64,000 bases of DNA, taken from positions 26,944 through 90,943 of the forward strand of contig ONWU01000006.1 in NCBI GenBank assembly GCA_900321655.1. The letters are read 5' to 3'. A program made the translations under genes and the position numbers. Within the stretch, counting starts at the first letter, position 1. Each line of letters starts with the position of its first letter. Below are positions 35,458-60,567 of this stretch, in pieces. Origin of the DNA: an uncultured Bacteroidales bacterium. Its GTDB lineage: Bacteria; Bacteroidota; Bacteroidia; Bacteroidales; UBA932. Under the pieces are notes generated by a model. The model ran no database searches, was not told where the DNA came from, and saw nothing but the letters and a program-made list of their open reading frames with translations.

Positions 35458-36584
35458 TGCAGGGATACAGGCATATTTTTGTTCTTCTGGCCTTCTGCAT
35501 CCAGGCCAGCGCCTGCAGCATCCGTCCGGAGCTGCACCTGCACCAGCCCATCCATACCCAGATTGTTCTGGAAACGGAGGTGAACCTGAACCTGATGTGG
35601 CAGGTGGAATGGGAAACCCGCTGGGAGTTCCCCTGGAACGAGAATGTTCTGGGGCCGCTTGGCTACCAGGAACCCGCCAGCATCAGCGCCCACGTGTACT
35701 CGCTGGACGAAAACGGAAATCACAAGTCTCATTTCACGCAGAATTTCTACGGTACCACGGCCAATATGCCCGTTACCGTAGGAACTTACGACCTCCTTTT
35801 CCACAACAACGATTCCGAGACGCTGCTTTTCAGCTCGGAAAACGAGCTGGGAACCATTCACTGCTCAACGCGCGTGATTTCCAGCGGTCTGAAGGAATCT
35901 CATCAGGTGTTAACCGCCCTGCAAAAGGAAGAGGATACCAAGGCCGAGGAGGAAATGCCCGGCGAGCCGGTAACCCTGATGCCGGACGGACTGTTTGTGC
36001 TGTACGACCAGAACGAGCAGATTAGCGGAAACCTGGAGGACTACGAGTATATCGACGGGAAGTATGTGCTTCGTATCCAGGGAGTTATGAATCCAGCTAC
36101 GTATATTCACCTTTTCCAGATCCATCTTCTTAACAATGAGGGCCGTGTGGCGGGAAGTAATGGCGGGGCTGCCCTGACGGGTGTGGCCGGTGGGGTGGAT
36201 CTGGATACGCGCGTGTCCGCGCGCACGAGTGTGTGCGTGCCTGCGGATGTATATTATGATCGCGCGAGGGAGCTGATGGCCGCCCGCTTTGTGAGTTTTG
36301 GTATTCCGGGATGCAATCCTTATGATGGGGAGAGTCTGGAGACGGCTCCGCAGGGGAATCACTTCCTGGTGATCAATGTTAGCTATTCCAACGGAAACTG
36401 GAAGAATATCCGGGTGGATGTTACCAATGCGCTCCGAGCCCTCCCCCTGGGAGGACTCATAGACCTCACGCTGGATGTGAATGACTTTCCTCCGGAACAG
36501 GGGGATACCGGCGGGGGTGGCGGTTTTGATGCCCTCATTGATGAGTGGGACGAGGAGCAGGGTGAAACGACAATTATATTTTAA
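35457..36584 (+). CDS. DUF5119 lipoprotein of the fimbrial operon
   Basis: A 375-residue lipoprotein (ASAC lipobox) starting at ATG 35457, which overlaps the preceding stop (TGATG). It matches the Bacteroidales DUF5119 family with the start ELHLHQP followed by ETEVNLNLMWQVEWETRWEF. A Gly-rich, acidic C-terminus follows (DTGGGGGFD). Members lie in fimbrial operons; the molecular role is unknown. A 40-base AT-rich gap separates it from the first fimbrillin. Confidence 0.75.
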   Translation: MQGYRHIFVLLAFCIQASACSIRPELHLHQPIHTQIVLETEVNLNLMWQVEWETRWEFPWNENVLGPLGYQEPASISAHVYSLDENGNHKSHFTQNFYGTTANMPVTVGTYDLLFHNNDSETLLFSSENELGTIHCSTRVISSGLKESHQVLTALQKEEDTKAEEEMPGEPVTLMPDGLFVLYDQNEQISGNLEDYEYIDGKYVLRIQGVMNPATYIHLFQIHLLNNEGRVAGSNGGAALTGVAGGVDLDTRVSARTSVCVPADVYYDRARELMAARFVSFGIPGCNPYDGESLETAPQGNHFLVINVSYSNGNWKNIRVDVTNALRALPLGGLIDLTLDVNDFPPEQGDTGGGGGFDALIDEWDEEQGETTIIF

Positions 36585-36624
36585 TTAACCAATAAACAAT
36601 TATTTAATTAACTAACAATTCTTT

Positions 36625-37704
36625 ATGAGTATGAAAAAAGCAGTACTCCTTGCTGCAGCGGCCCTCAGCCTGGTCGCCTGCGGAAAAACCTACCTGGACG
36701 AGCCCGTGGCTCAGAATTCCATCGGTTTCAACACCTGGACTAACAACCTTACCAAAGCCCGTGTACAGGGTTCGAACGAGTTTACTGACGGTGACACCTT
36801 TGCCGTGTATGGTTACAAGTCTATGTCTGACAATACCGGAGCCAACACCGTTTTCAACGGCGTTACAGTCAAGACTACAGATGGCACGACGTGGACCTAC
36901 GATACTCCCCGCTTCTGGGACTCCAATTATGACAAGTACACCTTCTTCGCCGTTTCTCCGGCATCTGCCGTTACCGGCGGAACCGTGGACGCCCAGACCG
37001 GTGAAATTACAAGTGCTTCCTTCACCTTCGACGGAAAAAACAACGATATCCTGGTAGCAGATAAAAAAGAAGTTGTAAAAGGAGATGGTCCTACATTCTT
37101 CAACGGTTTTGCAACTGTTCCGCTTCAATTCAACCACGTTGCTTCTCTGGTAGATATCAAAATAAAGAAAGCGCCCGCATTTCACAGTGCCACCGTTTCC
37201 GTTACCGCATTCAAGCTCTCCAATATCGAGAACAAAGGTGCCTTCTCCGTTAATGATGCCTATACCGATTCTCACCCTGTCGCCACTTGGAGCAGCTTAG
37301 GAACTGGCGAATACCTCCCGGCCGATGGCGTTCTCCCCCTTACCATCGATGAAGACACCAATTTCCCTTCCGAGAATGCAGCGGCATCCTCTGATATTAT
37401 CAAGAGCCTTATTGTTAAGCCCCAGGATTTTGTTGCCTCCAATGGTACCGATCCTCAGAAGATTACGCTTAGCTACAAGATTGCAGTTGGAGATGAATCT
37501 ATAGAGTACAATGATAAAAATCTTTATCTCGCAGATTTTGACGTTGTAGATGATGCAGACCAGAATGATACCAAAATCGGTTCTTGGGAGCCTGGGAAGC
37601 ACTACACCTTATACATTACCATTGGCGCAAACGCCATCAGTTTCAGCGCCAGCATCTCAAACTGGACGCCGGCAGATAACGGTTACCACTATCTCGTAAA
37701 GTAA
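36625..37704 (+). CDS. Fimbrillin-family lipoprotein (probable major subunit)
   Basis: A 359-residue lipoprotein (SLVAC lipobox) with fimbrillin-type features: a TKARVQGSNEFTDGDTFAVYGY segment soon after the signal (Arg for proteolytic maturation is plausible but not proved), FWDSNYDKYTFFAVSP, and the C-terminal WEPGKHYTLYITIG followed by the strand ISFSASISNW. The more AT-rich upstream spacer and the location suggest this is the most strongly expressed subunit. Either ATG 36625 or 36631 may serve as start. Confidence 0.8.
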   Translation: MSMKKAVLLAAAALSLVACGKTYLDEPVAQNSIGFNTWTNNLTKARVQGSNEFTDGDTFAVYGYKSMSDNTGANTVFNGVTVKTTDGTTWTYDTPRFWDSNYDKYTFFAVSPASAVTGGTVDAQTGEITSASFTFDGKNNDILVADKKEVVKGDGPTFFNGFATVPLQFNHVASLVDIKIKKAPAFHSATVSVTAFKLSNIENKGAFSVNDAYTDSHPVATWSSLGTGEYLPADGVLPLTIDEDTNFPSENAAASSDIIKSLIVKPQDFVASNGTDPQKITLSYKIAVGDESIEYNDKNLYLADFDVVDDADQNDTKIGSWEPGKHYTLYITIGANAISFSASISNWTPADNGYHYLVK

Positions 37705-37707
37705 TTG

Positions 37708-38697
37708 ATGACCCGTCGCATCATACTCATAGCAGCCATAGCTTCCAGCGCCCTGCTGACGGCAGGGTGCGCGAAGCTGGACAATCCGGCCCAGGAGCAG
37801 AACTCCATCTGCTTCCAGGCCGGATGCTCCCTGCTACGGGATGATGCCACCAAAGCATACGAACCTCTCACCTCAGAGCAGCAGATGCTCAGTTTCCGGG
37901 TCTACGGCACCAAAACCGTTTCCGGTAACCGCAGCACCGTCTTCCACGGAGAAGAGGTAAAAAACATCTACAGCAACTGGCAGTACAGCCCCATCCGTTT
38001 CTGGGACAGCAGCGCCAGCCGCTACGAATTCCTGGGCATAGCCGGACCTTCCGAATCGGCCATCACCCTGGATCTGGAGAATCCCCTGTCGGCCACGGTA
38101 ACCTACAACCCCACGGAAGCGGAATACGACCTGATGGCCGCCTGCTACTACCGCAGCAGCAACGCCCAGGGCACCCTGGATATGAGCACCCCGGTAGAAC
38201 TCCACTTCGAGCACTTCCTCAGTGCCGTAAACGTGAAAGTAACCAACGACTCCCCCACCCAGGAAATCACCCTCCTGCAGTACGGCTTCCGGAACCTCTG
38301 CACAGAGGCCGAAGTCCGGTTCAGCTTCTCCACCAGCACCCCTCAAGCCCAGTGGCAGGATCTCAGCAGAAAGAAAAACACCACAGACCTCCTTCTGACA
38401 AATGATAAGCCCTCCTGGAATATGATGATCCCCCAGGACCTGAACACCCTCTCCCTGGCTCCCCTTCTGATGATTCAATACAGGGTAGGTCCAGAGGATA
38501 CCGGAGAAATCGTGGAAACCCCCATCCGTCTGAGCAACATCACCACCCTGGGTGGAAATAATATTACCCAGTGGGAAGCCGGAAAGAAGTATACCTATAA
38601 TATACATATCCGCTACGGAGGAGGCATCACCGTACACGTGATAACCACCGAGTGGGATGAAAGAAAAGCCGGAACCCCCGGCCTCATTGTATCGTGA
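37708..38697 (+). CDS. Fimbrillin-family lipoprotein (minor subunit)
   Basis: A 329-residue lipoprotein (LTAGC lipobox) starting at ATG 37708, three bases after the previous stop. It shares with its neighbour the layout of a fimbrillin: the signal, SICFQAG, FRVYGTK, RFWDSSASRYEFLGI, and a C-terminal WEAGKKYTYNIHIRYGG followed by ITVHVITTEWDE. The gene overlaps the next one by four bases (GTGA). It is probably an accessory or adapter subunit of the fimbria. Confidence 0.78.
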   Translation: MTRRIILIAAIASSALLTAGCAKLDNPAQEQNSICFQAGCSLLRDDATKAYEPLTSEQQMLSFRVYGTKTVSGNRSTVFHGEEVKNIYSNWQYSPIRFWDSSASRYEFLGIAGPSESAITLDLENPLSATVTYNPTEAEYDLMAACYYRSSNAQGTLDMSTPVELHFEHFLSAVNVKVTNDSPTQEITLLQYGFRNLCTEAEVRFSFSTSTPQAQWQDLSRKKNTTDLLLTNDKPSWNMMIPQDLNTLSLAPLLMIQYRVGPEDTGEIVETPIRLSNITTLGGNNITQWEAGKKYTYNIHIRYGGGITVHVITTEWDERKAGTPGLIVS

Positions 38698-39719
38698 TTC
38701 TGAGAAAAGCCCATATCGCCCTCCTTCTCTCGCTGTCGATTGTACTCGGCAGCGGATGCCAGCGTAAAGAGCTTCCCGGTGGCGGCAAGATCACCCTCAC
38801 CCTGGTAACGGCAGAGCTGGAAACCAAAGCCATCACGGGAGAGAGCGAGCCAGACCTTTTCATTGCCCTGGCAGGCAGCAACGGCTCCATCCTCGCCACC
38901 TATCCTTCCAAAGAGAACGATACCTACAAGAGCCAATGCAATTCCTCCTCGGCCACGGAAGCCACCATCTCCATAGACAGCCCCGGCCGCGGAACCTATT
39001 CGGTGTTTGTAGTGGCCAACCACTCCTGGCTGACGGATTCCTCCAATCCCAGCCTGAGCGCCAGCCTCACATCGGCCTCAACGCTATCCGAGCTGGAGAA
39101 CCTGATTCTGAGCCGTTCCGCGGTCTTAACCTTTGATACAGAGCATCCTATGCCCCTTTCGGCCCGGGGAACCCTAACCCTTGCCGCCAGCGAAAACGGG
39201 CAGATCAACCTGGAGCTTAAACGCGTCGTAGCCCGCATAAGCCTTTCCTTCAGCAACAAGACGGAAGAGGAATTAACGCTTAAAGACTGCACCATTACCT
39301 TAAAGAAAATGAACCCCCTGAAGGGGTATCTCTTCCCGACCGCCACAGACTACGTGACAAGAGAAGAATCTGACCAGGACGACCTTGTCCTCTGCAATGG
39401 CCGGGACATTACCATCGAGGCCGGAAAAGAGAACGGGACAGAGCCTGTTCTGGTTTTCCCCAGCATAGCGCCTACCCAGAGCGAAGGCGGAAGGATGTAC
39501 CAATGCGACATCCGCTTCCACCTGGGAGATCAGGAGTACAACAACACCAACCTCCCGGTCCAGGACCTGAGCACCTTCGAAAGCATCCTTTCCCTGGAAA
39601 GGAACCAGAGTTTTACCATCCTCACAGAGATAAACAAGAGAGGGTCTGACAAAGACATTTCCTTTAACTTCCGCGTGAGAGGCTGGGAAAAGCTGACGGA
39701 AGAAATAACATTCAATTAG
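38694..39719 (+). CDS. Fimbrillin-like lipoprotein (minor subunit)
   Basis: A 341-residue lipoprotein (GSGC lipobox) that starts at GTG 38694, overlapping the previous stop. The sequence has fimbrial traits: LETKAITGESEPDLFIALAG (TKA-type site), ARISLSFSNKTEEEL, and the end FTILTEINKRGSDKD, then FNFRVRGWEKL. Similar genes between fimbrillin and DUF4906 genes in Bacteroidales encode anchor or tip-proximal subunits. The assignment to a position in the fibre is an inference. Confidence 0.7.
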   Translation: MILRKAHIALLLSLSIVLGSGCQRKELPGGGKITLTLVTAELETKAITGESEPDLFIALAGSNGSILATYPSKENDTYKSQCNSSSATEATISIDSPGRGTYSVFVVANHSWLTDSSNPSLSASLTSASTLSELENLILSRSAVLTFDTEHPMPLSARGTLTLAASENGQINLELKRVVARISLSFSNKTEEELTLKDCTITLKKMNPLKGYLFPTATDYVTREESDQDDLVLCNGRDITIEAGKENGTEPVLVFPSIAPTQSEGGRMYQCDIRFHLGDQEYNNTNLPVQDLSTFESILSLERNQSFTILTEINKRGSDKDISFNFRVRGWEKLTEEITFN

Positions 39720-47336: not shown

Positions 47337-47921
47337 ATGAGTAACGATACCAGACTTTCCCTGTTTGCCGGCCTGCTGATTGGTCTGGGCGCCTACGGCT
47401 TCCTTTCCCTGGGAGGCATTCCCGGCGCTGTCATCTTTGCCTTCGGCCTGGTGGGCGTGGTTTTAACTGGCTCCCTTCTGTATACAGGGAAGGCGGGCGT
47501 CCTCACGGATATGGGCGCCATCGCCAAAATCTGGTTCTGGAACGTAGTGGCCTGCATAGTGGTGGGCCTGATGGTCTATGCCATAGGAGGAGATGCGTTC
47601 GAAAGGGCCCAGAGCGTGGTGGCCGGAAGGTTTGTCCAGGGTCCCTGGCGCAGTTTCCTGAGGGCCGTGGGCTGCGGCGTCATCATAGACATTTCCGTCT
47701 ATCTGTACCGCATTTCCAAATCCCTTGTCCCCATCCTTTTCGGCATTCCCCTCTTTATCCTCTGCGGCTTCTACCACTCCATCGCAGACGTAGTATACCT
47801 GGTGGCCGCCTTCAAGTGGGACCCGGCCATCCTCTGGTATTACCCCATCATCGTCATCGGCAACTTTGTGGGTTGCAATGTGCGACGGGTGCTGCTGCCT
47901 AAAGAACAGGCTTCCAAGTAA
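47337..47921 (+). CDS. Short formate/nitrite transporter-family channel
   Basis: A 194-residue membrane protein of the FNT fold, shorter than typical members (about 260-280). Diagnostic parts are GCGVIIDIS (near residue 115), CGFYHSIADVVYLV (near residue 140, with the conserved pore His) and the C-terminal GNFVGCNVRRVLLP. It likely conducts a small anion such as formate or nitrite across the inner membrane. The first part, equivalent to the early helices, appears trimmed. The 3' end overlaps the convergent M23 peptidase gene by 23 bases. Confidence 0.75.
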   Translation: MSNDTRLSLFAGLLIGLGAYGFLSLGGIPGAVIFAFGLVGVVLTGSLLYTGKAGVLTDMGAIAKIWFWNVVACIVVGLMVYAIGGDAFERAQSVVAGRFVQGPWRSFLRAVGCGVIIDISVYLYRISKSLVPILFGIPLFILCGFYHSIADVVYLVAAFKWDPAILWYYPIIVIGNFVGCNVRRVLLPKEQASK

Positions 47922-49158: not shown

Positions 49159-49238
49159 TAAATAAAGCCGGAAAAATTCGGAATCCGGAAAAGATTTCGT
49201 AACTTTCGCCAATTAATAACACTAAAAAGGATCTGTCC

Positions 49239-49913
49239 ATGGACCCTGTCAAGATCATCGAAATCAAAAAGAGTGTTTTCGAGGATAATGACGCCGACGC
49301 CGGAAGACTTCGAAAAGAATTGAAGGAGAAAGGAGTATACCTTCTGAACCTGATGTCTTCCCCCGGAAGCGGAAAGACCACGACACTCATCAGAACCCTT
49401 AACCTGCTTAAGGATAATCTTCGCATCGCCGTCATGGAGGCCGATATAGACTCCGACGTGGATGCCGTCAAGATCAAGGAAGCCACCGGCATTCCTTCCA
49501 TCCAGTTGCATACCGGAGGCATGTGCCACCTGGACGCCGAAATGACACGTCAGGGCCTGGCCGGGGTAGAGATGGATAATCTGGACCTGGTGGTCCTGGA
49601 GAATGTGGGCAACCTGGTGTGTCCCGCAGAATTCGACACCGGCGCCTGCCGGAACGCCATGATCCTCTCCGTCCCGGAAGGCCACGACAAGCCTCTCAAA
49701 TACCCGCTGATGTTCTCTGTCTGCGACGTAGTGGTCATCAACAAAATAGATGTGCTCCCCTACTTCGACTTCGACCTGGACAAATGCAAGGAATATATCC
49801 ACATGCGCAATCCCAAGGCACAGGTAATCCCCATCTGCGCCAAAACGGGAGAAGGCGTGGAAGCCTTTGCGCAGTGGATCCTGGAGGAAGTTAAAAACTG
49901 GAAACAACACTAA
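49239..49913 (+). CDS. hypB: Nickel-incorporation GTPase HypB
   Basis: A 224-residue SIMIBI GTPase that delivers nickel to hydrogenase-like enzymes with HypA. Seen: P-loop SSPGSGKTTT (near residue 45), the metal/nucleotide-linked GGMCHLDAEM, ENVGNLVCPAEFDTGA, and NKIDVLPY (G4). There is no His-rich N-terminal extension. The Cys/His in GGMCHLDA match the shared metal site. It is followed 14 bases later by the large oxidoreductase gene and, beyond that, hypA. No hydrogenase subunit or hypCDEF gene is in view. Confidence 0.93.
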   Translation: MDPVKIIEIKKSVFEDNDADAGRLRKELKEKGVYLLNLMSSPGSGKTTTLIRTLNLLKDNLRIAVMEADIDSDVDAVKIKEATGIPSIQLHTGGMCHLDAEMTRQGLAGVEMDNLDLVVLENVGNLVCPAEFDTGACRNAMILSVPEGHDKPLKYPLMFSVCDVVVINKIDVLPYFDFDLDKCKEYIHMRNPKAQVIPICAKTGEGVEAFAQWILEEVKNWKQH

Positions 49914-49927
49914 AAAGATAACCTGTT

Positions 49928-52756
49928 ATGCCTGAGATGTCTAAAAAGTTTATCCCCAAGCACAAGGGGGATAAAAATCCCAATCCCAAGCTGTTGAAAT
50001 TTGTCCGTCACGTCACGGACCGCATTCCCGGAAAGATCAAGATGGATACGGACGCCCCGGAATACTGGGGCCTTGCCTGCATCTTCGAGGATGAAATGGA
50101 CGCCGTCACCCGGGAAGCCTCCCTGGATCTTCTGCTGGATATGCTGCCCGGCAATTTCTTCAAGGTAAGGAAGCACCACAGCTATTCCCAGCTGCACCGG
50201 ATGAATGCCCAGAAGCACTACACCCCGGACGACAAGTCCTTTGACGACCTTCTGGACAAGCTGGCCTTCTTCGGAATGCTGGAATACGACTACGGAGACC
50301 ACTACACCAACGGTCAGGGCCCGGATCCCGGCACCACCTTCAACCGGGAAGACCGGGAGTACTGGGTGCCGATGTTCGTTCCCGGCAGCGCCGAGTACAC
50401 CAATATGAACGTAGAGCTGATGGACAGGCATCCGGAGCTGGCTATGTTCTTCGAAAGGATGACCTTCCTCCCCCTGGAGAAGATTACTCCTATGGTCCCT
50501 ATGGGAGGCTCCGGCATCGGTATGCACGTGATTCCCGTGGAGAAAGCCATCTCCATGGAGAACCAGTCCATTGACATAGAGCACATTTCCTACTGGCTCA
50601 AAAAGTACGAAGGCCACCTGGGCGTTGGCATCTGCAGCTGCCGCTACGGCCGGAAAAAACTGGACGAAGGCTGCGCCGACGACTACCGGGACTGGTGCAT
50701 CGGCGTAGGAGACATGGCCGATTACCTGAGGGAAACCGGCCGCGGCCACGACATTACTTATGATGAGGCGATGGCCATCCTCAAAAAGGCCGAAGACCAC
50801 GGTTTCGTACATCAGGTCACCAATATCGACGGAGAGGGCAAGATCTTCGCCATCTGCAACTGCAATGTCAAGATTTGCAACGCCCTCAGAACCAGCCAGT
50901 TGTTCAATACGCCCAATATGTCCCGCAGCGCCTATGTGGCCGAGGTAGACCCGAAGAACTGCGTGGCCTGCGGCCGATGCGTGGAGTACTGCCCCGCCGG
51001 CGCCGTGAAGCTGGGCCAGAAGCTGTGCACCCAGCACGGCCCCCAGACGTATCCCAAGCAGGAACTGCCGGATGCATCGGCCTGGGGTCCCCACAAATGG
51101 ACGGAAGACTACCGGGACAAGAACCGCATCAACTGCTATCCTACCGGCACCGCCCCCTGCAAGACAGCCTGCCCCGCGCACATTGCCGTGCAGGGATATC
51201 TGAAGAAGGCGGCCGAGGGCAAGTATACCGAGGCCCTGGAACTCATCAAGCGGGAGAATCCCTTCCCCGCCGTCTGCGGCCGCATCTGCAACCGCCGCTG
51301 CGAGGACGCCTGCACCCGCGGCACCATAGACCGCGCGGTGGCCATCGACGCCGTCAAGAAATTCCTGGCCGACAGGGATCTGAAGGCCGAAACCCGCTTC
51401 GTACCGGAGGTGAACATCTGCTCCAATGTGGAGGAGCGCTGGCCGCAGAAGATCGCCATCATCGGCGGCGGCCCGGCCGGCATGAGCTGCGCCAACTACC
51501 TGGCCACCATGGGCTACAAGCCTACGGTGTTTGAAAAGAACGAGGAGCCCGGCGGCATGCTCCGCTACGGCATTCCTTCCTACAAGCTGGACAAGGCCGT
51601 CATCAAGGCCGAGATTGATATCATGAAGGAGATTGGCGTAGAGGTGAAAACCGGCGTGGAAGTGGGCAAGGACATCACCATCGCCCAGCTCCGCGAGCAG
51701 GGCTACAAGGCCTTCTACATAGCCATCGGCTGCCAGGGAGGAAAGCTTCCCGGCATCCCCGGAGAGACGCTGGAAGGCACCACCACCGCCATCGATTTCC
51801 TGCACAAGGCCAACTGCGGAGACGTAAAGGTCTCCGGCAAGGTGGTTGTTGTGGGCGGCGGCAACGTGGCCATTGACGCGGCCCGCGTGGCCAAGAGAAG
51901 CGGCGCTTCCGAAGTTACCATGCTGTCCCTGGAGACGGAAGACATCATGCCCGCCTCCCTGGAAGAAAGGATGGAAGCCCGCGAAGACGGAGTGGTCCTG
52001 AACCCCGGCTGGGGTCCGAAGGAAGTGCTGGGAGAGGACAAAGTCTCCGGCATCGTCTTCAAAAAGTGCACGTCCGTTTTCAACGCAGAGCACAAGTTTG
52101 CCCCGGAGTACGACGAGAACGAGCTCATCACCCTGGAGGCAGACCTTGTTATCTTCGCCATCGGCCAGACCGTCATCCTGAAGGATCTTCTGAAGGATAC
52201 CAAGGTGGAATTCTTCCGCGGAGTATACCCCGTGGCCGACAAGCTCACCTACCAGACGGCCGAGCCGGATATCTTCGTGGGAGGAGATGTCTTCACCGGT
52301 CCCAAGTTTGCCATCGACGCCATCGCCGCCGGCAAGGAGGCTGCCGAAAGCCTGCACCGCTTTGTGCAGAACGGGCATATGACCATCGGCCGCAACCGCC
52401 GGGACTTCATTGAACTGAACAAGCAGGATATCCTGGTAGAATCCTACGACAACGGTTCCCGTCAGGATCCGGGTGTGGTGCCTGTGAAAACCCAGTTCGA
52501 AGAGTACCACGGAACGCTCACGGAAGAGCAGGTGCGCAAGGAGACGGCCCGCTGTCTCAGCTGCGGCGCCTCCGTAGTGGACCAGAACCGCTGCATCGGC
52601 TGCGGCGTCTGCACCACCAAGTGCGCCTTCGACGCCATCCACCTGCACCGCGTCCATCCCGAAGCCTCTGTGATGCGCACCTCCGAGAACAAGTTCGACG
52701 GCATCCTTCCGTATATGATCAAACGTACCGGAAAGATCCTGTTCAAGAAGAAATAG
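49928..52756 (+). CDS. Multi-FeS, FAD/NAD(P)-dependent oxidoreductase
   Basis: A 942-residue protein. Residues about 235-330 contain a Cys-rich ferredoxin-like region (CSCRYGRKKLDEGC, then ICNCNVKIC). A first 4Fe-4S site, NCVACGRCVEYCPAG, is near residue 345. The GltD/dihydropyrimidine dehydrogenase-type domain (APCKTACPAHIAVQGY, then CGRICNRRCEDAC) is at 410-465. The FAD loop IIGGGPAGMSCA is near 512, and the NAD(P) loop VVVGGGNVAIDAA near 640. A last 4Fe-4S site, NRCIGCGVCTTKCAFDA, is near 890. It could pass electrons between NAD(P)H and ferredoxin; the N-terminal ~230 residues are unfamiliar. It lies between hypB and hypA. Confidence 0.85.
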   Translation: MPEMSKKFIPKHKGDKNPNPKLLKFVRHVTDRIPGKIKMDTDAPEYWGLACIFEDEMDAVTREASLDLLLDMLPGNFFKVRKHHSYSQLHRMNAQKHYTPDDKSFDDLLDKLAFFGMLEYDYGDHYTNGQGPDPGTTFNREDREYWVPMFVPGSAEYTNMNVELMDRHPELAMFFERMTFLPLEKITPMVPMGGSGIGMHVIPVEKAISMENQSIDIEHISYWLKKYEGHLGVGICSCRYGRKKLDEGCADDYRDWCIGVGDMADYLRETGRGHDITYDEAMAILKKAEDHGFVHQVTNIDGEGKIFAICNCNVKICNALRTSQLFNTPNMSRSAYVAEVDPKNCVACGRCVEYCPAGAVKLGQKLCTQHGPQTYPKQELPDASAWGPHKWTEDYRDKNRINCYPTGTAPCKTACPAHIAVQGYLKKAAEGKYTEALELIKRENPFPAVCGRICNRRCEDACTRGTIDRAVAIDAVKKFLADRDLKAETRFVPEVNICSNVEERWPQKIAIIGGGPAGMSCANYLATMGYKPTVFEKNEEPGGMLRYGIPSYKLDKAVIKAEIDIMKEIGVEVKTGVEVGKDITIAQLREQGYKAFYIAIGCQGGKLPGIPGETLEGTTTAIDFLHKANCGDVKVSGKVVVVGGGNVAIDAARVAKRSGASEVTMLSLETEDIMPASLEERMEAREDGVVLNPGWGPKEVLGEDKVSGIVFKKCTSVFNAEHKFAPEYDENELITLEADLVIFAIGQTVILKDLLKDTKVEFFRGVYPVADKLTYQTAEPDIFVGGDVFTGPKFAIDAIAAGKEAAESLHRFVQNGHMTIGRNRRDFIELNKQDILVESYDNGSRQDPGVVPVKTQFEEYHGTLTEEQVRKETARCLSCGASVVDQNRCIGCGVCTTKCAFDAIHLHRVHPEASVMRTSENKFDGILPYMIKRTGKILFKKK

Positions 52757-52757
52757 G

Positions 52758-53099
52758 ATGCACGAACTGGGAATTGTGTTCTATATTATCCGTGACGTCA
52801 AGAAGGCGGCACAGGAGCACGGTGTGGAGCACGTGAACGCCGTCGTGATGAATATCGGAGAGGTGTCCACGGTGGTGCCGGAGTACCTGACGGACTGCTG
52901 GAGATGGGCGGCGGACAAAGAGGATGTCCTGCGGGGCTGCGAGCTCAAGTGCAACATCCTGCCGGCCGTTACCACCTGCAACGCCTGCGGAAAGGAATAC
53001 CCCACCGTACAGCACGGCATCCGATGCCCGTACTGCGGCAGTGAAGACACGGTTCTGAAGTGCGGTAACGAAGTAGAAATCAAAGAATTAGAAGTTTAA
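52758..53099 (+). CDS. hypA: Nickel-binding metallochaperone HypA
   Basis: A 113-residue HypA: the nickel-binding N-terminus MHE, including His2, and the zinc site CNACGKEY followed by CPYCGSED (residues about 73-97) are intact. It works with HypB to load nickel. The gene starts one base after the oxidoreductase stop, and the DUF5692 gene follows 32 bases later. A nickel-enzyme partner is not visible in this window. Confidence 0.93.
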   Translation: MHELGIVFYIIRDVKKAAQEHGVEHVNAVVMNIGEVSTVVPEYLTDCWRWAADKEDVLRGCELKCNILPAVTTCNACGKEYPTVQHGIRCPYCGSEDTVLKCGNEVEIKELEV

Positions 53100-53131
53100 A
53101 ACTTATAAACCAATCAAACAAAATCTAAACT

Positions 53132-54229
53132 ATGTTCTTTCAAGTTTATGGGGCTAATGCCCTTTCCCAGTGGGGAATGCTCATCGTGGTCCTTCTGGGC
53201 CTGATTCTCCTCAATGAATTTGCCCGCCGCACGAAGCTGGGCGGCATCATCACCTTCCTGGCCATTCCGCTGGGCCTCACCGCCTACTTCCTGGCCATCT
53301 GGTGGGGTGTCCGTACCGGTGCCCAGTGGGCCCTGGAAAACCAGACGCACGTCTATATGCAGGGCTGGTTCCACTATGCCAAGCTGTACGCCGCCACCGC
53401 CGGCTGTATCGGCTTCATGATGATCAAGTACAAATGGGGCATCGGCGCCAAGCACTGGTTCAAGCCCTTCCCCTTTGTGATTGTGGGCATCAACATCCTC
53501 ATCGCCTGCGTATCGGACTTCGAGAGCGCCGTAATGGGCTGGAACAAGTGGTGGCTCACCTCTGAGGGCGTCTGGCAGTATGGCGGCTGGCACAATGTGA
53601 TGAACGGCGTAGCCGGTCTGATCAACATCATGTGCATGACCGCCTGGTGGAACGTCTATCCTTCCAAGGACAAGAAGGATATGATCTGGGCCGATATGAC
53701 CTGGGTGTACATCGTCATCTACGACATCTGGAACTTCGCCTATACGTACAACTGCCTGCCTACGCACAGCTGGTACTGCGGTATCGCCCTGCTGCTGGCC
53801 CCCACCGTGGCTGCCCTGCTGTGGAACCGCGGCGGCTGGATCCAGAACCGCGCCAACACCCTGGCTATCTGGTGCATGTTTGCCCAGGTATTCCCCCTGT
53901 TCCAGGAAACCTTCAAGAACGGTCAGCAGTGGTTCAGCTGGGCCACCCTGCCGGTGCTCTATCCCGAAGGTGTGGATACCATCGCCAAGCTCTATGAGGC
54001 TGCCGGCGGTGAGGCTGCAACCGTAGGAACCACCGTGGATCCTTCCGTTGTGGCTGCCAATCCCACGATGATGATCGTGATCAGCGCCCTGGCCCTGGTA
54101 ACCAACATCATCGCCATCTGCTACATCATCTCTGTCTCCCGCAAGCGTCACATCAACCCCTACAAGGAAGATGTCTTCGTGGACCAGAAGTACTACAAGG
54201 ATGCCATGGCCCGCGCTGTGGTGGACTAA
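53132..54229 (+). CDS. DUF5692 multi-pass membrane protein
   Basis: A 365-residue membrane protein with eight or more hydrophobic segments. It resembles the DUF5692 family, judged by blocks such as ALSQWGMLIVVLLGLILLNE, FHYAKLYAATAGCIGFM and YVIVYDIWNFAYTYNCLPTHSWYCG. There are several conserved-looking Trp, Tyr and His residues within or close to membrane segments. Function is unknown. Operon position after hypB, a redox flavoprotein and hypA suggests a membrane partner of that electron-transfer system. A strong terminator follows. Confidence 0.65.
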   Translation: MFFQVYGANALSQWGMLIVVLLGLILLNEFARRTKLGGIITFLAIPLGLTAYFLAIWWGVRTGAQWALENQTHVYMQGWFHYAKLYAATAGCIGFMMIKYKWGIGAKHWFKPFPFVIVGINILIACVSDFESAVMGWNKWWLTSEGVWQYGGWHNVMNGVAGLINIMCMTAWWNVYPSKDKKDMIWADMTWVYIVIYDIWNFAYTYNCLPTHSWYCGIALLLAPTVAALLWNRGGWIQNRANTLAIWCMFAQVFPLFQETFKNGQQWFSWATLPVLYPEGVDTIAKLYEAAGGEAATVGTTVDPSVVAANPTMMIVISALALVTNIIAICYIISVSRKRHINPYKEDVFVDQKYYKDAMARAVVD

Positions 54230-54250
54230 AATCATCCTTTATTCCCTTTC

Positions 54251-54279
54251 AGGAGGCCCCTTCCGGGCCTCCTTTTTTT
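54251..54279 (+). terminator. Terminator of the hypB-DUF5692 operon
   Basis: Stem AGGAGGCCC / GGGCCTCCT with loop CTTCC and a run of seven T residues (54273-54279). Confidence 0.9.
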
Positions 54280-54299
54280 GTCCCCTGCGAATTATTCAC

Positions 54300-54307
54300 T
54301 ATCTTTG
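54300..54307 (+). promoter_or_regulatory. -7 box for glpABC
   Basis: TATCTTTG (TAnnTTTG), 27 bases upstream of ATG 54335. Confidence 0.6.
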
Positions 54308-54334
54308 ACTGTTTATTTACGCACGTATACTAAA

Positions 54335-55945
54335 ATGAACCCTAACGAATTTGACGTAATCATCATCGGAGGCGGTATAACCGGAGCCGGAACGCAGAGA
54401 GACTGCGCCATGCGCGGGCTGCGGACGCTCCTGGTAGACCGTTCGGACATAGCCACCGGCGCCACCGGCCGAAACCACGGCCTGCTGCACTCCGGTGCCC
54501 GCTACGCAGTAAGCGACCCGGAATCGGCCGCCGAATGCATCCGGGAAAATATGATCCTGAGAAAAGTGGCCGCCCACTGCATCGATGAAAGCGATGGCCT
54601 GTTCGTCACCCTCCCCGAAGACGACCTGGACTATCAGAAAACCTTTGTACAGGCCTGCCACAATGCCGGTATCCGGGCAGATATCATAGACCCGGAACTG
54701 GCCCGCCGGCTGGAACCGGCCGTGAACCCGGATATCATCGGCGCCGTCCGCGTGCCGGACTGCAGCGTGGATCCTTTCCGCCTGTGCGCCGCCAATATGC
54801 TGGATGCCAAGCTTCACGGAGGACAGGTGCGCCTGCATACGGACGTGACGGGCATCATCAAGGAAGGAAATACCGTCAAAGGCATCCGGACGCACAACCG
54901 CAACACCGGAGAAGACAAAGATTTCTACGCACCCATCGTGGTGAATGCCAGCGGCGTCTGGGGCCAGGAAATTGCCCAGATGGCCGGAGTGAAGGTGGGA
55001 ATGTTCCCGGCCAAGGGCTCCCTCCTTATCTTTGCCCATCGGGTGAACAATATGGTCATCAACCGCTGCCGCAAGCCCTCCAACGCAGATATTCTGGTTC
55101 CCGGAGACACCGTGTGCATCGTGGGAACCACTTCTTCCCGCATTCCGCTGGAAGAGTGCAGAAACGTAGCCGTCACCCCGGACGAGGTAACGCTCCTGAT
55201 CACAGAAGGCATCAAGATGGCTCCGCGCCTCTCCTCCACCCGCATCCTCCGGGCATACGCCGGCGTGCGCCCGCTCGTAAGTGCCGATGACGACCCTTCC
55301 GGCCGCAACATCTCCCGCGGCATCGTCTGCCTGGACCACGAAACCCGCGACGGCGTGAAAGGCTTTATCACCATCACCGGAGGCAAGCTCACCAGCTACC
55401 GCCTGATGGCCGAAATGGCCACGGACCTGGTGTGTCGCAAACTGGGGGTGGACAAGGCCTGCGAAACCGCCATCGCTCCCCTGCCGGGCTCCGAAGAGGG
55501 TTCCTATGAGGAAGTAGCCAAAAAGATTTGGGAAAATCCCACCACGGCCCAGAAAGCCGCCGCCGCCCGGATGGGCAGCCGTGTCTCCCGCATCCGCAGC
55601 GCCGACCGCCGGGATGAGGCCCTCATCTGCGAATGCGAACAGGTATCGATGGGAGAAATCAACGCCGCCATAGACCGTCTGGAGGCTTCCACCCTCACAG
55701 ACCTCCGCCGCCGTACGCGCGTGGGAATGGGCACCTGCCAGGGTGAATTCTGCGCCTGCCGGGCCGCCGGCCTGCTGGCCAAGGCCCACGGCTGCATCCA
55801 GAAGGAAAGGGAAGACATCGATTACTTCCTCCAGGAGCGCTGGAAGGGCAACTTCCCCATCGGCTGGGGAGATACCCTCAGAGAGGCGGAATATACACAA
55901 TGGGTTTATAAACACGTATTAGGCATATGCGATTCGATACAGTAA
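54335..55945 (+). CDS. glpA: Anaerobic glycerol-3-phosphate dehydrogenase subunit A
   Basis: A 536-residue flavoprotein close to the usual GlpA length (about 540). ATG 54335 gives MNPNEFDVIIIGGGITG, with the FAD loop at the very start. Substrate-binding blocks GATGRNHGLLHSGARYA and ARILRAYAGVRPL-like RILRAYAGVRPL are present. A C-terminal BFD-like [2Fe-2S] domain has LICECEQVSM and GMGTCQGEFCACR. It oxidises glycerol-3-phosphate to dihydroxyacetone phosphate with GlpB and GlpC, passing electrons to quinone. Its 3' end overlaps glpB by 19 bases. Confidence 0.95.
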   Translation: MNPNEFDVIIIGGGITGAGTQRDCAMRGLRTLLVDRSDIATGATGRNHGLLHSGARYAVSDPESAAECIRENMILRKVAAHCIDESDGLFVTLPEDDLDYQKTFVQACHNAGIRADIIDPELARRLEPAVNPDIIGAVRVPDCSVDPFRLCAANMLDAKLHGGQVRLHTDVTGIIKEGNTVKGIRTHNRNTGEDKDFYAPIVVNASGVWGQEIAQMAGVKVGMFPAKGSLLIFAHRVNNMVINRCRKPSNADILVPGDTVCIVGTTSSRIPLEECRNVAVTPDEVTLLITEGIKMAPRLSSTRILRAYAGVRPLVSADDDPSGRNISRGIVCLDHETRDGVKGFITITGGKLTSYRLMAEMATDLVCRKLGVDKACETAIAPLPGSEEGSYEEVAKKIWENPTTAQKAAAARMGSRVSRIRSADRRDEALICECEQVSMGEINAAIDRLEASTLTDLRRRTRVGMGTCQGEFCACRAAGLLAKAHGCIQKEREDIDYFLQERWKGNFPIGWGDTLREAEYTQWVYKHVLGICDSIQ

Positions 55946-57051
55946 TAGTGGGAGGCGGTCTGGCAGGACTGGTAGCAGGCATCAGCCTGCTCAAGGCCGG
56001 CCGCAGCACCGCCATCGTGAGCACGGGGCAGAATGCCCTGCACTTCTTCTCGGGCTGCTTCGAATCCTTCCAGGAGGCGCCTCCGGAGGTTCTCAGCCTC
56101 TTCTCCGAGGCCGGCATCCGGCTTCACTACAAGCCCGGCGTGCGCCTGATGCCCATGGGCACCTTCAAGGAATCGGCCCTCTCCCTGGAAGACGTGAGTC
56201 TCTTCCCCACCCCGCAGTTCGGAAAGCGGGTGCTGGTGATCAACTTCATGGGCTACCACGATTTCTTCTCCTCTTTCCTGGCCGAAGGGCTGGAGAAACA
56301 GGGGATGGAATGCCGCATCCGTTTCCTCAATCTGGGAGAACTCACCCAGCCGGAACTGGGGCCCAACGAGATGCGCGCCGTACAGATTGCCCGCAAGATG
56401 GACGATGTCTGGGAAAAGGTGGTGCAGGAAGTTCGTGTGCTCCTCAAGGACGAAGACACTGTGGTGCTGCCGCAGGTTTTCGGCCTCAAAGATCCGTCCG
56501 TTCCAGACCGCATCCGGCAAAACATTCCCGCACAGGTGGTGTTTGCCGGCACCCTGCCGCCCTCTGTTCCCGGCATCCGCACGCAGATGCAGCTGAGAAA
56601 ACGCTTCGAAGTGCTGGGCGGTACCTATCTGATGGGAGACCGCGTCACCGGCGCCCACGTGTTTGAAGACAGGGTTCAGAATGTGGTTACCAAACATCTG
56701 GACCGCCATTACCTGGAAGCAGACCATTTCATCCTGGCCAGCGGAAGCTTCTTCTCCAAGGGCCTGGTGAGCAATCCCTTCAAGATTTACGAGCCCCTGT
56801 TCGAGCTGGATATGGACTACAACCAGGACCGCAACGCCTGGTACAATCCCACCTTTGCCGGAGCCCAGCCCTATATGGGCTTTGGCGTGAAAACGGATGA
56901 AAACCTTCGGCCCACTCGAAAGGGCGTTCCCCTGAAGAACCTCTATGTCATCGGTTCCATCCTGGGAGAAACCCATCCGGAACTGGGAAGCGGGGCGGGG
57001 CTGGCCATTCGAAGCGCCCTCAAGGCAAGCGAGCTCATTACCAAGGAATAG
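55927..57051 (+). CDS. glpB: Anaerobic glycerol-3-phosphate dehydrogenase subunit B
   Basis: A 374-residue FAD-binding subunit of the GlpABC complex, somewhat shorter than the E. coli protein (about 419). The FAD loop VIVGGGLAGLVAG lies at residues 6-18, followed by NALHFFSGCFESF. The C-terminal IGSILGETHPELGSGAGLAI block is the second flavin-contact motif. The start overlaps glpA by 19 bases and glpC begins four bases after the stop, so the three genes form one operon in the expected order. Confidence 0.92.
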   Translation: MRFDTVIVGGGLAGLVAGISLLKAGRSTAIVSTGQNALHFFSGCFESFQEAPPEVLSLFSEAGIRLHYKPGVRLMPMGTFKESALSLEDVSLFPTPQFGKRVLVINFMGYHDFFSSFLAEGLEKQGMECRIRFLNLGELTQPELGPNEMRAVQIARKMDDVWEKVVQEVRVLLKDEDTVVLPQVFGLKDPSVPDRIRQNIPAQVVFAGTLPPSVPGIRTQMQLRKRFEVLGGTYLMGDRVTGAHVFEDRVQNVVTKHLDRHYLEADHFILASGSFFSKGLVSNPFKIYEPLFELDMDYNQDRNAWYNPTFAGAQPYMGFGVKTDENLRPTRKGVPLKNLYVIGSILGETHPELGSGAGLAIRSALKASELITKE

Positions 57052-57055
57052 CATC

Positions 57056-58270
57056 ATGTATCAGGAGTTTACGGAGAGCCGGTACAATTTTGAAGAATGT
57101 ACCAAGTGCACCGTCTGTACGGCCTTCTGTCCGGTCTTGCAGGCGAATCCCCGGTATCCCGGTCCCAAGCAGGCCGGGCCCGACGGGGAGCGCCTCCGTC
57201 TGAGGGACCCGAACTTCTTCGACGAGTCCCTCAAATACTGCCTCAATTGCAAGCGCTGCGAAGTCTGGTGCCCTTCAGAAGTGAAAGTGGCAGACCTGAT
57301 CCAGTCGGCCCGCCTCAAATACGACTCCTCCCCCATCAAGCTTCGGGACCGCATCCTGGCTTCTACAGACTTTATGGGCAAGCTGGCGCGGCCGGTGGCT
57401 CCGGTGGTGAACGTCGTCACGGGCCTTCCGCTGGCCAAATCGGCCATGGATGCCATGCTCAAGATAGACCGGCACCGCACCTTCCCGCAGTATTCGGCCT
57501 CCAGCTTCGAGTTCTGGCTCAAGCGCCGGCACAAAGAGCAGGCCCTTTTTGACGAGCAGGTGGCCTATTTCCACGGCTGCTATGTCAACTACAACTATCC
57601 CCAGCTGGGAAAAGACCTGGTGAAGGTGCTCAATGCCCTGGGCATCGGTGTCCAGCTGCTGGACGGAGAAAAATGCTGCGGCATCGCCCTCATCAGCAAT
57701 CGGCTCACCAAAGAGGCCACCCGGAATGCCCGGCACAACGTGGCCGTTCTGGAAAAAGCGGTGGAGAAAGGGCTCAAGGTGGTCACTACCTCTTCCACCT
57801 GTACGCTAACCATGCGGGAAGAGTATCCCAGCCTTCTGGGAGTAGACAACGCTTCGGTCAGGGAATCCATCATCATGGCCACCCGCTTTATCTACGAGAA
57901 ACTGGAGCACGGCGCCACCCTCCCCTTCCGTTCGGATTTCCACAAGAGAGTGGCCTACCACACGCCCTGCCACATGCAGCGCCTGGGCTGGGGCATCTTC
58001 ACGGAGAAACTCCTCAGGATGATCCCCGGTCTGGAACTGGTGGTACTGGACAGCGCCTGCTGCGGCATAGGCGGCACCTACGGCTTCAAGAAGGAGAACT
58101 ACAAAACCTCCCAGTCTGTAGGAGAGGCTCTTTTCGAACAAATCCGCAGCGTGAACCCCGAGGTAGTGGCCTGTGACTGTGAAACCTGCAAGTGGCAGAT
58201 AGAAATGTCCACCGGCTACACGGTCCAGAACCCCATCTCTATCCTGGCCGAAGCGCTCTCCACCGAATAG
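57056..58270 (+). CDS. glpC: Anaerobic glycerol-3-phosphate dehydrogenase subunit C
   Basis: A 404-residue iron-sulfur membrane-associated subunit that carries electrons from GlpAB to menaquinone. Start ATG 57056 lies just after glpB. Two 4Fe-4S binding sets, CTKCTVCTAFCP and CLNCKRCEVWCP, occupy residues about 13-75. Two CCG domains follow (CCGIAL near residue 205 and CCGIGGTYG near 337, then CDCETCKWQIE). All Cys of these sites are intact. The operon ends here; a hairpin shared with convergent glpF follows. Confidence 0.95.
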   Translation: MYQEFTESRYNFEECTKCTVCTAFCPVLQANPRYPGPKQAGPDGERLRLRDPNFFDESLKYCLNCKRCEVWCPSEVKVADLIQSARLKYDSSPIKLRDRILASTDFMGKLARPVAPVVNVVTGLPLAKSAMDAMLKIDRHRTFPQYSASSFEFWLKRRHKEQALFDEQVAYFHGCYVNYNYPQLGKDLVKVLNALGIGVQLLDGEKCCGIALISNRLTKEATRNARHNVAVLEKAVEKGLKVVTTSSTCTLTMREEYPSLLGVDNASVRESIIMATRFIYEKLEHGATLPFRSDFHKRVAYHTPCHMQRLGWGIFTEKLLRMIPGLELVVLDSACCGIGGTYGFKKENYKTSQSVGEALFEQIRSVNPEVVACDCETCKWQIEMSTGYTVQNPISILAEALSTE

Positions 58271-58292
58271 CCTGATTTTCAATTACATATAA

Positions 58293-58326
58293 ATTGAGGG
58301 GTGTACCTGGAAGTGCACCCCTCAAT
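58293..58326. terminator. Bidirectional hairpin between glpC and glpF
   Basis: Arms ATTGAGGGGTG and CACCCCTCAAT form an 11-bp perfect stem with a 12-base loop. It serves both convergent operons, though no long T run follows on either side. Confidence 0.7.
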
Positions 58327-58336
58327 CTATAAAACA

Positions 58337-59074
58337 TTAATACACAAGTAAATAGATTCCAGCCGCCAGGCAGGCGCCCAGCATAGGGCCCGCAACAGGG
58401 ACCCAGCTGTAGGACCAGCCGCTGTCCCGTTTACCGGCAATGGGAAGGACGGCGTGGGCACAGCGGGGAGAGAGATCTCGGGCGGGGTTCATCGCATATC
58501 CTGTGGTGCCGCCCAGGGACATACCCAGGGCCATAATGACGCAGGTAACGGGCCAGGCGCCCAGGGCACCGGTAGAGGCATTCTGACCGCCGGCCACAAA
58601 GGCATTCCCCTGCGTGCCGATGGCAAGGATGAGGAAGACCAGCAGGCAGGTGGCGATGAATTCGCTGAGGAAGTTACGCCAGGGATTCCAGATGGCGGGC
58701 ATCGTGCAGAAGGTGCCCAGCATCACGTCCGGCTGATCGGCCGTAGCCTTGTAGTGATCCTTGTAGAAGATCCAGACCAGGCAGGCACCTACGAAACCGC
58801 CCAGCATCTGGGCCACGCAGTAGCCCAGCACCAGGTTCCAGGAGAATTTGCCCGCAATGGCCAGGCCCAGCGTCACGGCCGGGTTCAGGTGCGCACCGGA
58901 AACGGGACCGGCAATAAGCACGCCCATCATCACGGCAAAGCCCCAAGCCAGCGCAATCACTACCCAGCCTGCACCTTGTGCCTTGGATTTATTCAGAGAA
59001 CAGGCGGCGCATACGCCGTCACCAAACAGTACCAGCACCAGGGTACCGATGAATTCAAAGATATACTGTTCCAT
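58337..59074 (-). CDS. glpF: Glycerol facilitator (aquaglyceroporin)
   Basis: A 245-residue MIP channel with six membrane helices. NPA motifs: HLNPAVTLGLAIAG near residue 64 and AMNPARDLSPR near 195; the Asp after the second NPAR motif and the larger periplasmic loop mark a glycerol-conducting channel, in contrast to the AqpZ at 3358-4029. It overlaps glpK by one base (TAATG), so the kinase and facilitator are translated together. Confidence 0.95.
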   Translation of the reverse strand: MEQYIFEFIGTLVLVLFGDGVCAACSLNKSKAQGAGWVVIALAWGFAVMMGVLIAGPVSGAHLNPAVTLGLAIAGKFSWNLVLGYCVAQMLGGFVGACLVWIFYKDHYKATADQPDVMLGTFCTMPAIWNPWRNFLSEFIATCLLVFLILAIGTQGNAFVAGGQNASTGALGAWPVTCVIMALGMSLGGTTGYAMNPARDLSPRCAHAVLPIAGKRDSGWSYSWVPVAGPMLGACLAAGIYLLVY

Positions 59075-60567
59075 TACTTACTGATTGTTCTGCCAATAGC
59101 ATCGGCCCAACCCTTCCGGGCGGCCGACATATCCTCTCCGGTGGGCTGGAAGCAGCGTTCCACCTGCCACTGGGCCTTGATCTCGTCCAGCGAGTTCCAA
59201 TAGCCAACGGCCAGTCCTGCCAGGTAGCAGGCGCCCATCGCGGTGGTTTCCGTCACCTGGGGACGCACTACGCAGGCACCCAGGATATCGGCCTGGAACT
59301 GCATCATCAGGTTGTTGCGGGAAGCGCCGCCGTCCACCTTCAGTTCTGCCAGCGGTACGCCGGCGTCTTTCTCCATCGCGCGGACGATGTCCATCGTCTG
59401 GAAAGCAATGCCCTCCAGCGCCGCGCGGGCAATATGGGCCGATGTAGTACCGCGGGTGATGCCGCAGATTACTCCGTGGGCATACTGGTCCCAGTACGGG
59501 GCGCCCATTCCGGTGAGGGCCGGGACAAAGTATACGCCTCCGTTGTCCGGAACGGAAGCCCCCAGGGCCTCGATCTCCGAAGAGGAGCGGATGATGCCCA
59601 GGCCGTCCCGCAGCCACTGCACCACAGAGCCGCCCACGAAGATGGAGCCCTCCAGGGCGTAGTTCACGCAGTCCCCTATCTTCCAGGCCACGGTGGTGAG
59701 AAGGTTGTTCTTGGAGAGGATGGGCTTGGAGCCCGTATTCATCAGGAGGAAGCAGCCCGTCCCGTAAGTATTTTTCACAGAGCCGGGCTCTATGCACATC
59801 TGGCCGAAAAGGGCCGACTGCTGGTCACCTGCTATGCCGGCGATAGGAACCTCGTGGGCGAAAATGGTGGTTTTGGTATGGCCGTACACTTCGGAGGAAG
59901 ACTTCACGGCCGGCATCATAGAGGCCGGGATGTCCAGAAGGTCCAGCAGCTCCTTATCCCACTCCAGCGTATGGATGTTGAACAGCATCGTACGGGAGGC
60001 ATTGGTGACATCCGTCACGTGCACTTCCCCGCGGGTGAGCTGCCATACCAGCCAGCTGTCCACCGTGCCGAAGCGCAGCTGGCCGGCAAGGGCCTTTTCA
60101 CGCGCACCGGGCACATTGTCCAGGATCCATTTGATCTTGGTGCCGGAGAAGTACGCATCGATGATAAGACCCGTCTTTTCCCGGATCTTGTCCACCAGGC
60201 CCCGCGCCTTCAGCTGGTCACAGAAGGCCGATGTACGCCTGTCCTGCCACACGATGGCATTGTACACGGGAGCGCCGGTTTCGGCATCCCACACGATGGT
60301 GGTTTCTCTCTGGTTGGTAATGCCGATGGCGGCGAGGCTCTTGCCGTTGATGCCCAGCTTGGTGATGGCCTCGGCAATGACGGCGGCCTCGGAGGACCAG
60401 ATTTCCATAGGATTGTGTTCCACCCAGCCCGGTTTCGGGAAATACTGGGTAAACTCCATCTGGGCCACAGAGCAGATGTTGCCCTCGTGGTCAAAGACAA
60501 TGGCCCTGGAGGAACTGGTGCCCTGGTCCAGCGCCAAAATGTACTTGCTAGTGGTTGATGCTTCCAT
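59074..60567 (-). CDS. glpK: Glycerol kinase
   Basis: A 497-residue FGGY-family kinase, normal length, that makes glycerol-3-phosphate. Motifs: [13 protein letters not shown] near residue 14, [13 protein letters not shown] near 84, [13 protein letters not shown] near 170, [13 protein letters not shown] near 260 and the C-terminal [16 protein letters not shown]. The first 20 bases overlap the end of the hydrolase gene upstream. Product enters the GlpABC complex encoded by the convergent operon. Confidence 0.96.

Follow-up and report, generated by a model that had tools for sequence, protein, structure and literature searches.

A 64,000-nucleotide (nt) stretch of contig ONWU01000006.1, from assembly GCA_900321655.1 of an uncultured Bacteroidales bacterium (UBA932; genome completeness 82.37%), carries a locus in which hypB, a gene for a large oxidoreductase, hypA and a gene for a DUF5692 membrane protein follow one another head to tail. 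We refer to the whole stretch as the window, and all coordinates are those of the window. The locus comprises the following features:

49200 to 49207, + strand: candidate -7 promoter element TAACTTTC, located by string match, its start 39 nt before hypB
49239 to 49913, + strand: hypB, nickel GTPase/metallochaperone, 224 residues (TIGR00073)
49928 to 52756, + strand: isrA-type flavin adenine dinucleotide (FAD) / multi-[4Fe-4S] NAD(P)H oxidoreductase, 942 residues (domain matches and the published plan of IsrA)
50633 to 50878, + strand: N-terminal six-cysteine site of the IsrA-type protein (C236xC238, C257, C310xC312, C317), proposed nickel/iron-sulfur (Fe-S) active centre
51134 to 52372, + strand: Fer4_20/Pyr_redox_2 part of the oxidoreductase (PF14691, PF07992; Nfn, GltD and dihydropyrimidine dehydrogenase structures)
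52758 to 53099, + strand: hypA, nickel metallochaperone, 113 residues (PF01155)
53132 to 54229, + strand: DUF5692 multi-pass membrane protein, 365 residues (PF18948; helical model)
54251 to 54279, + strand: intrinsic terminator at the operon end, a 9-pair stem (54251-54273, seven G-C pairs) with a T6 tail

The intergenic spacings of 14, 1 and 32 nt and the terminator after DUF5692, both pointed out in an earlier note on this DNA, were confirmed from the open reading frames (ORFs) and from the stem with its tail; the terminator separates the four genes from a glpA-type gene downstream. The same note took the genes for a single transcription unit. That they form one conserved unit is borne out below, and they probably share one transcript. 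The TAACTTTC box was likened to TAnnTTTG, which we take to be the Bacteroidetes -7 element.

The oxidoreductase places a Fer4_20 domain (residues 403-486) before a Pyr_redox_2 domain (508-802), the arrangement of GltD and NfnB, and adds ferredoxin (Fer4) motifs at residues 339-360 and ~876-899. Its N-terminal region is as unfamiliar as the earlier note had supposed: no Pfam family exceeds its cut-off within residues 1-336, and the Nfn, GltD and dihydropyrimidine dehydrogenase chains found by a profile search of the PDB align only from residue 389 onward among the 60 of 97 matches listed. This region nevertheless holds a strictly conserved set of cysteines. Across an alignment of 60 rows, made up of the window protein and 59 near full-length relatives of at least 57% identity, with some rows giving the same locus twice, Cys 236, 238, 257, 310, 312 and 317 are invariant, as they are in a further 5-row alignment; Cys249 is kept in 59 of the 60 rows and altered in a human fecal contig (L124). 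Invariant across the same rows are the cysteine sets 345-355, 403-415/450-462 and 876-899, which provide for four canonical [4Fe-4S] sites; the pairing of individual cysteines with individual clusters is a putative one, read from the sequence.

The same plan is described for IsrA of Acetobacterium wieringae, a putative isoprene reductase of 901 residues. Its residues 1-270 contain no domain that could be recognised, and six closely placed cysteines include CxC motifs at 180/182 and 254/256 (PMC10134865). The 74-residue spacing of the two CxC motifs is equal in the window protein. Because domain plan and spacing are the same, we file the window protein as an IsrA-type (clade 9) oxidoreductase, the comparison being with IsrA as described in print.

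The flanking genes match nickel chaperones. HypB scores 234 bits against TIGR00073 hypB (cut-off 121) and possesses the CHxnC nickel motif (Cys96-His97, Cys128); HypA exceeds the PF01155 cut-off (104 versus 28.9 bits, E 5e-30) and retains His2-Glu3 together with two CxxC zinc motifs. Family assignments and motif residues thus bear out their designation as a nickel-loading pair.

The fourth protein matches PF18948 over residues 9-361 (427 bits, E 4.5e-128). A second structural model, built with 35 sequences (predicted local distance difference test, pLDDT, 83; predicted template modelling score, pTM, 0.84), consists mainly of membrane-length helices, in agreement with the multi-pass protein that had been proposed. 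Foldseek comparison of two DUF5692 models with the PDB (pLDDT of the first, 69) returned no match at E <= 0.001, and a PDB profile search gave a single marginal match, a chain named SLC39 iron-regulated transporter (E 0.024). Nineteen columns are invariant among 35 diverse DUF5692 proteins: L24, E29, R32, W79, F80, K84, N121, I122, A125, D129, N158, G162, D183, Y197, W200, N201, R240, T243 and L244. Many of these residues are charged or polar, and none is histidine or cysteine; in our judgement, DUF5692 looks more like a protein that converts or carries an organic molecule than like a metal or electron carrier.

Co-inheritance and conservation of the cassette

Co-inheritance was scored in 37 genomes, the window's own and 36 of the same genus, with Fisher test p-values that ignore relatedness (G numbers denote genomes, L numbers loci). 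DUF5692 occurs in 21 genomes, and the IsrA N-terminus and HypB above its cut-off in 19 each; one IsrA-positive genome (G036) retains only a 29-residue piece of the N-terminus, directly after hypB. The IsrA N-terminus and DUF5692 are both present in 19 genomes and both absent from 16, with DUF5692 alone in two (G004, G011) and IsrA alone in none (p 1.2e-8); the DUF5692 contig of G011 ends in the C-terminal quarter of IsrA. IsrA and HypB are both present in 18 genomes and both absent from 17, with one discordant genome each way (G001, G035; p 2e-8), so that concordance is 18 of 19 in either direction. Since six of the 16 genomes without IsrA and DUF5692 are 91-98% complete, and two further genomes of the genus, 100% complete (G469, G807), have no DUF5692, the cassette is accessory in the genus.

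The earlier note had seen neither a hydrogenase nor hypC-F genes, and no such family was found among the 39 distinct window ORFs (of 121 listed) that were scanned with Pfam; for HypC, HypE and HypF the search was confined to these ORFs, and no genome-wide search was made. The [NiFe]-hydrogenase large subunit (PF00374), HypD and the urease alpha subunit were found in 0 of the 37 genus genomes, the window's own included; in the same searches PF00374 and HypD were recovered elsewhere in the order, and all three in control genomes. With neither the large subunit nor HypD found in these 37 genomes, a role in [NiFe]-hydrogenase maturation was rejected. The possibility that hydrogenase genes continue the operon in relatives likewise finds no support, the large subunit having been found in none of the 37 genomes, 21 of them with DUF5692; this search did not extend to the 80 loci described next.

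When named genomes were scanned with the DUF5692 alignment, at least 558 encoding stretches were obtained. The 80 best serve here as loci; two of them (L058, L062) belong to one metagenome-assembled genome. Cassette genes were counted by tblastn, IsrA matches below 45-50% identity being dropped, and many of the stretches end at contig ends. The locus titles read Bacteroidales or Bacteroidia bacterium, apart from one 'bacterium F082'. A ruminant host is named in 36 titles, and 33 more carry RUG or RUI names, which we take to denote rumen sets; these loci are the closest ones and are therefore uninformative on the hosts of the remaining stretches. HypB, IsrA, HypA, a small gene and DUF5692 are all present in 47 loci, and the four genes without the small gene in 7; IsrA, HypA and DUF5692 occur without HypB in 11 more, 7 with the small gene and 4 without. 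The remainder comprises one locus with HypA and DUF5692, one with the small gene and DUF5692, and 13 with DUF5692 alone. In all 65 IsrA-bearing loci IsrA lies upstream of DUF5692 on the same strand. Where a stretch holds neither IsrA nor HypA (14 loci), IsrA lies elsewhere in 12 of the genomes and was found nowhere in G464 and G465. Three more distant loci of the genus (L001, L008, L024) have DUF5692 beside IsrA but on the opposite strand.

The small gene, present in 55 of the 80 loci, is an ORF of ~96-120 residues that separates hypA from DUF5692 or, in stretches that do not include hypA, precedes DUF5692 (for example L048:6987-7334 and L047:9653-9988, within the range L042-L121). By eye, its product has two hydrophobic stretches with the core EKMLWGGSVMLIVDHIINGEL; no Pfam family exceeded its cut-off in the two examples scanned. 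The hypA-DUF5692 gap of the window is too short for this gene, and a 115-residue query, run without a positive control, did not find it in the window's own genome.

The gene order extends beyond Bacteroidales. The plasmid record OY725877 (267 kb) of Subdoligranulum variabile, a member of the Firmicutes, carries HypB, IsrA, HypA and DUF5692 in the order of the window, at identities of 71, 60, 49 and 56%, respectively, and the human fecal contig L124 has the order IsrA-HypA-DUF5692-HypB. Because the plasmid and L124 carry the cassette, the unit is, as judged by these sequence records, conserved beyond one lineage, and it has probably moved between phyla. An accidental adjacency, which the earlier note had marked for checking, was rejected: the genes are gained and lost together in the genus, are linked in the 80-locus set and recur in order in Subdoligranulum. 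L124 is one of three human fecal records labelled 'Bacteriophage sp.' that encode DUF5692 (L124, L125 and L126; MT835472, MT837070 and MT837410), and it alone is noted with the whole cassette. All three are probably bacterial contigs, and as unverified records they are not taken as phage evidence. Scans of the viral_contigs set gave 24 pattern matches with the DUF5692 alignment and 16 with the IsrA alignment, no relative among them.

DUF5692 itself ranges more widely than the cassette. One of 395 genomes in a phylum-wide sample exceeded the cut-off, and that was the window's own; in a Bacteroidales sample, 22 of 393 exceeded the PF18948 cut-off. IsrA was sought in a set of 24 genomes, consisting of the 22 Bacteroidales genomes other than the window's own that match DUF5692 at E <= 0.001 together with G464 and G465. 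The IsrA N-terminus was found in one (G642), with a partial 28% match in a second (G751) and none in the other 22. Outside the genus, four of 24 genomes gave matches, all of them partial (26-31%). The more distant DUF5692 proteins, whose identity to that of the window is 22-42%, come from Bacteroidales mostly without IsrA (L165-L184), and a Latilactobacillus curvatus plasmid encodes one at 34% identity, with no IsrA on the plasmid at E 1e-100. Among the distant forms, several of ~310 residues adjoin Crp-type regulators; tandem pairs join a ~280-residue form to one with a secreted-looking N-terminal extension of ~120 residues, several of them beside TetR regulators; other distant genes have neither type of neighbour. 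Because DUF5692 occurs in many IsrA-free genomes and HypB and IsrA keep company in 18 of 19 genomes both ways, the centre of the system is more likely the IsrA-type oxidoreductase than DUF5692, around which the earlier note had built it.

Of the genes around the cassette, a short formate/nitrite-transporter family protein (194 residues, 47337-47921) lies upstream, with a - strand ORF between. Downstream, a glycerol cluster (54278-60567) comprises glpA/glpB, a glpC-like ORF, an MIP channel (58337-59074) and an FGGY (glycerol-kinase-family) kinase (59074-60567). Farther off, a DUF1295 gene, of a family we take to be steroid 5-alpha-reductase-like, stands beside a sodium/bile acid symporter family protein and a Na+/H+ antiporter (15907-19141), possibly a cluster for sterol or bile acid reduction. 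In a fimbria locus at 34162-39719, genes for DUF3575, DUF5119 and two fimbrillin-like (Mfa_like_1) proteins precede one for a 1555-residue protein.

Proposed function and rival explanations

Taken together, a model for the operon can be put forward, one that we hold moderately probable: a nickel-dependent reductase of an unfunctionalised, probably conjugated C=C bond, loaded by HypA and HypB, with DUF5692 handling the substrate at the membrane. Nickel insertion into IsrA, the substrate class, the electron route and the role of DUF5692 all enter this model by inference. The GTPase HypB and HypA would acquire nickel and insert it into the six-cysteine Fe-S site of the IsrA N-terminal domain. NAD(P)H would give electrons to the FAD in the GltD/NfnB-like half, and the [4Fe-4S] clusters would conduct them to the N-terminal site, where a bound hydrophobic diene or alkene would be hydrogenated. 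DUF5692, together with the small hydrophobic partner in most close relatives, might supply, transport or chemically prepare the hydrophobic substrate at the membrane. The reaction could give an anaerobe an electron sink and might also detoxify unsaturated lipids; for a rumen lineage, candidate substrates are unsaturated fatty acids, terpenes and phytol, all of which we assume to be abundant in the rumen. The glpA/glpB genes, found next to the cassette here and in 8 of the 80 relatives, are compatible with a lipid-fed life, as are the FGGY kinase and MIP channel of the window, but few loci show this context, and it does not identify a substrate.

A more specific version of this chemistry, which we think rather unlikely, would make DUF5692 a membrane linoleate isomerase that forms a conjugated diene and the IsrA-type protein an HypA/HypB-loaded Ni-Fe-S reductase of that diene (conjugated linoleic acid to vaccenate). 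The operon would then contain genes by which polyunsaturated fatty acids are biohydrogenated in rumen and gut, and DUF5692 lacking an IsrA partner would carry out the isomerisation alone.

Several observations weigh against the proposed nickel-dependent C=C reductase. HypA falls below the NCBIfam equivalog cut-off (TIGR00100; 69 versus 88 bits). The published A. wieringae isr operon is without the DUF5692 gene that the window operon has. Tested Acetobacterium strains with homologues of 47-49% identity do not reduce isoprene (PMC10134865), so the substrate is not transferable between homologues. No biochemistry was found for any family member, and none of later date for IsrA, in a literature mostly outside subscription journals; A. 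wieringae IsrA is itself putative. Three genomes of 99-100% completeness (G037, G562 and G779; loci L003, L174 and L173) encode a window-type DUF5692 (~78-82% identical) with no IsrA N-terminus found, and G464 and G465 also have DUF5692 without IsrA; DUF5692 is therefore not a strict partner of IsrA.

The rival explanations divide over which protein the nickel pair serves and what DUF5692 does. HypA and HypB are reputed to be pleiotropic and might serve a nickel enzyme encoded elsewhere, such as a hydrogenase, urease, lactate racemase or carbon monoxide dehydrogenase (CODH), their place beside isrA being incidental. The genome is ~82% complete, so that a missing gene may simply be unsequenced; some genus members give weak matches to Lar_N; and G035 has HypB with no IsrA or DUF5692 found. 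These points are met by the absence of PF00374, HypD and urease alpha from all 37 genus genomes (the searches did not take in CODH, nickel superoxide dismutase or further nickel enzymes), by Lar_N, which was not found in the window's own genome and does not track HypB, by the close tracking of HypB with IsrA and by the recurrence of the four-gene order in a second phylum; we regard this explanation as distinctly unlikely. It is also improbable, in our view, that DUF5692 is a permease feeding nickel or another metal to HypB and HypA. The genetic link to the chaperone pair, the predicted multi-pass topology and the marginal SLC39 match would suit a permease, but its invariant columns lack histidine and cysteine, no IsrA N-terminus match was found in 22 of the 24 examined genomes that match DUF5692 at or near the threshold, several of their DUF5692 genes sit beside TetR- or Crp-type regulators, and G037 carries a window-type DUF5692 with no HypB over the cut-off.

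Alternatively, DUF5692 could be a membrane anchor or quinone-side electron partner that ties IsrA into a respiratory complex, which we consider unlikely. The Pfam scan annotated no membrane domain in the oxidoreductase, electron sinks are often membrane coupled, and the window continues with anaerobic glycerol-3-phosphate dehydrogenase genes, while glpA/glpB adjoin the cassette in the 8 relatives mentioned. Yet DUF5692 offers no invariant histidine or cysteine for haem or Fe-S, occurs in IsrA-free genomes, and is parted from glpA by the terminator; Foldseek matches to respiratory proteins were not significant. Nickel, which the earlier note had brought up, we judge to be the likely theme.

Should the nickel-dependent reductase prove real, an enzyme acting on unactivated C=C bonds would lie outside the known nickel-enzyme classes and bring chemistry that is new; it would also be one more dedicated client of HypA/HypB. 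The operon is a testable gene candidate for double-bond saturation by gut anaerobes, its closest relatives (the best 80 of at least 558) being mostly ruminant-derived.

Comparison with known systems

The closest described counterpart is the isr operon of A. wieringae ISORED-2 and strain Y (PMC10134865, PMC9765523). Like the window operon, it encodes a ~900-residue fusion with an N-terminal CxC pair in an unfamiliar domain, ferredoxin-type motifs, Fer4_20 and an FAD/NAD(P)H part, and includes hypA and hypB; no [NiFe]-hydrogenase large subunit or HypD was found in that genome either. The window operon differs in having one hypA rather than two, no 4Fe-4S ferredoxin gene, and the order hypB-isrA-hypA-DUF5692. 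With isoprene, A. wieringae IsrA, HypB, a ferredoxin and one of the two HypA proteins increase, and Kronen et al. propose nickel at the six-cysteine site, with bifurcation as a possibility (PMC10134865). Cultures of strain Y reduce isoprene and 1,3-butadiene, and do not reduce ethene, propene or fumarate (PMC9765523). As to fatty-acid chemistry, an oleate hydratase lies near IsrA homologues in A. woodii. No linoleate isomerase gene is reported to have been found in Butyrivibrio (PMC6249431).

Around 988 IsrA homologues, Kronen et al. (2023) counted HypA in 73%, HypB in 56% and DUF5692 in 40% of neighbourhoods (PMC10134865). Clade 9 homologues have the same neighbour set, with Bacteroidetes among the phyla listed. 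Because these neighbours are already in print, the suggestion that the locus represents an undescribed system was too strong; the system is partly described. The accessible text on clade 9 describes no Bacteroidales four-gene unit, fifth small gene or pattern of joint loss.

More distant systems share parts. Nfn, GltD and dihydropyrimidine dehydrogenase (PDB 9n5u, 5jca, 2vdc and 1gt8) have in common with the window protein the FAD/NAD(P)H and Fer4_20 half (residues 389-815); among the matches listed, none of their best stretches covers the N-terminal domain proposed for nickel and substrate. The HypABCDEF maturation system of [NiFe]-hydrogenases shares HypA and HypB, but the 37 genus genomes yielded neither its HypD nor its client large subunit, and its Fe(CN)2CO chemistry is not expected here. 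The core association of IsrA, HypA, HypB and DUF5692 has thus been in print since 2023. What is new is the near all-or-none co-occurrence of the genes without a hydrogenase, the four-gene order across phyla, the additional small gene, and the view that DUF5692 constitutes a wider and independent family, often free of IsrA and without a solved-fold match.

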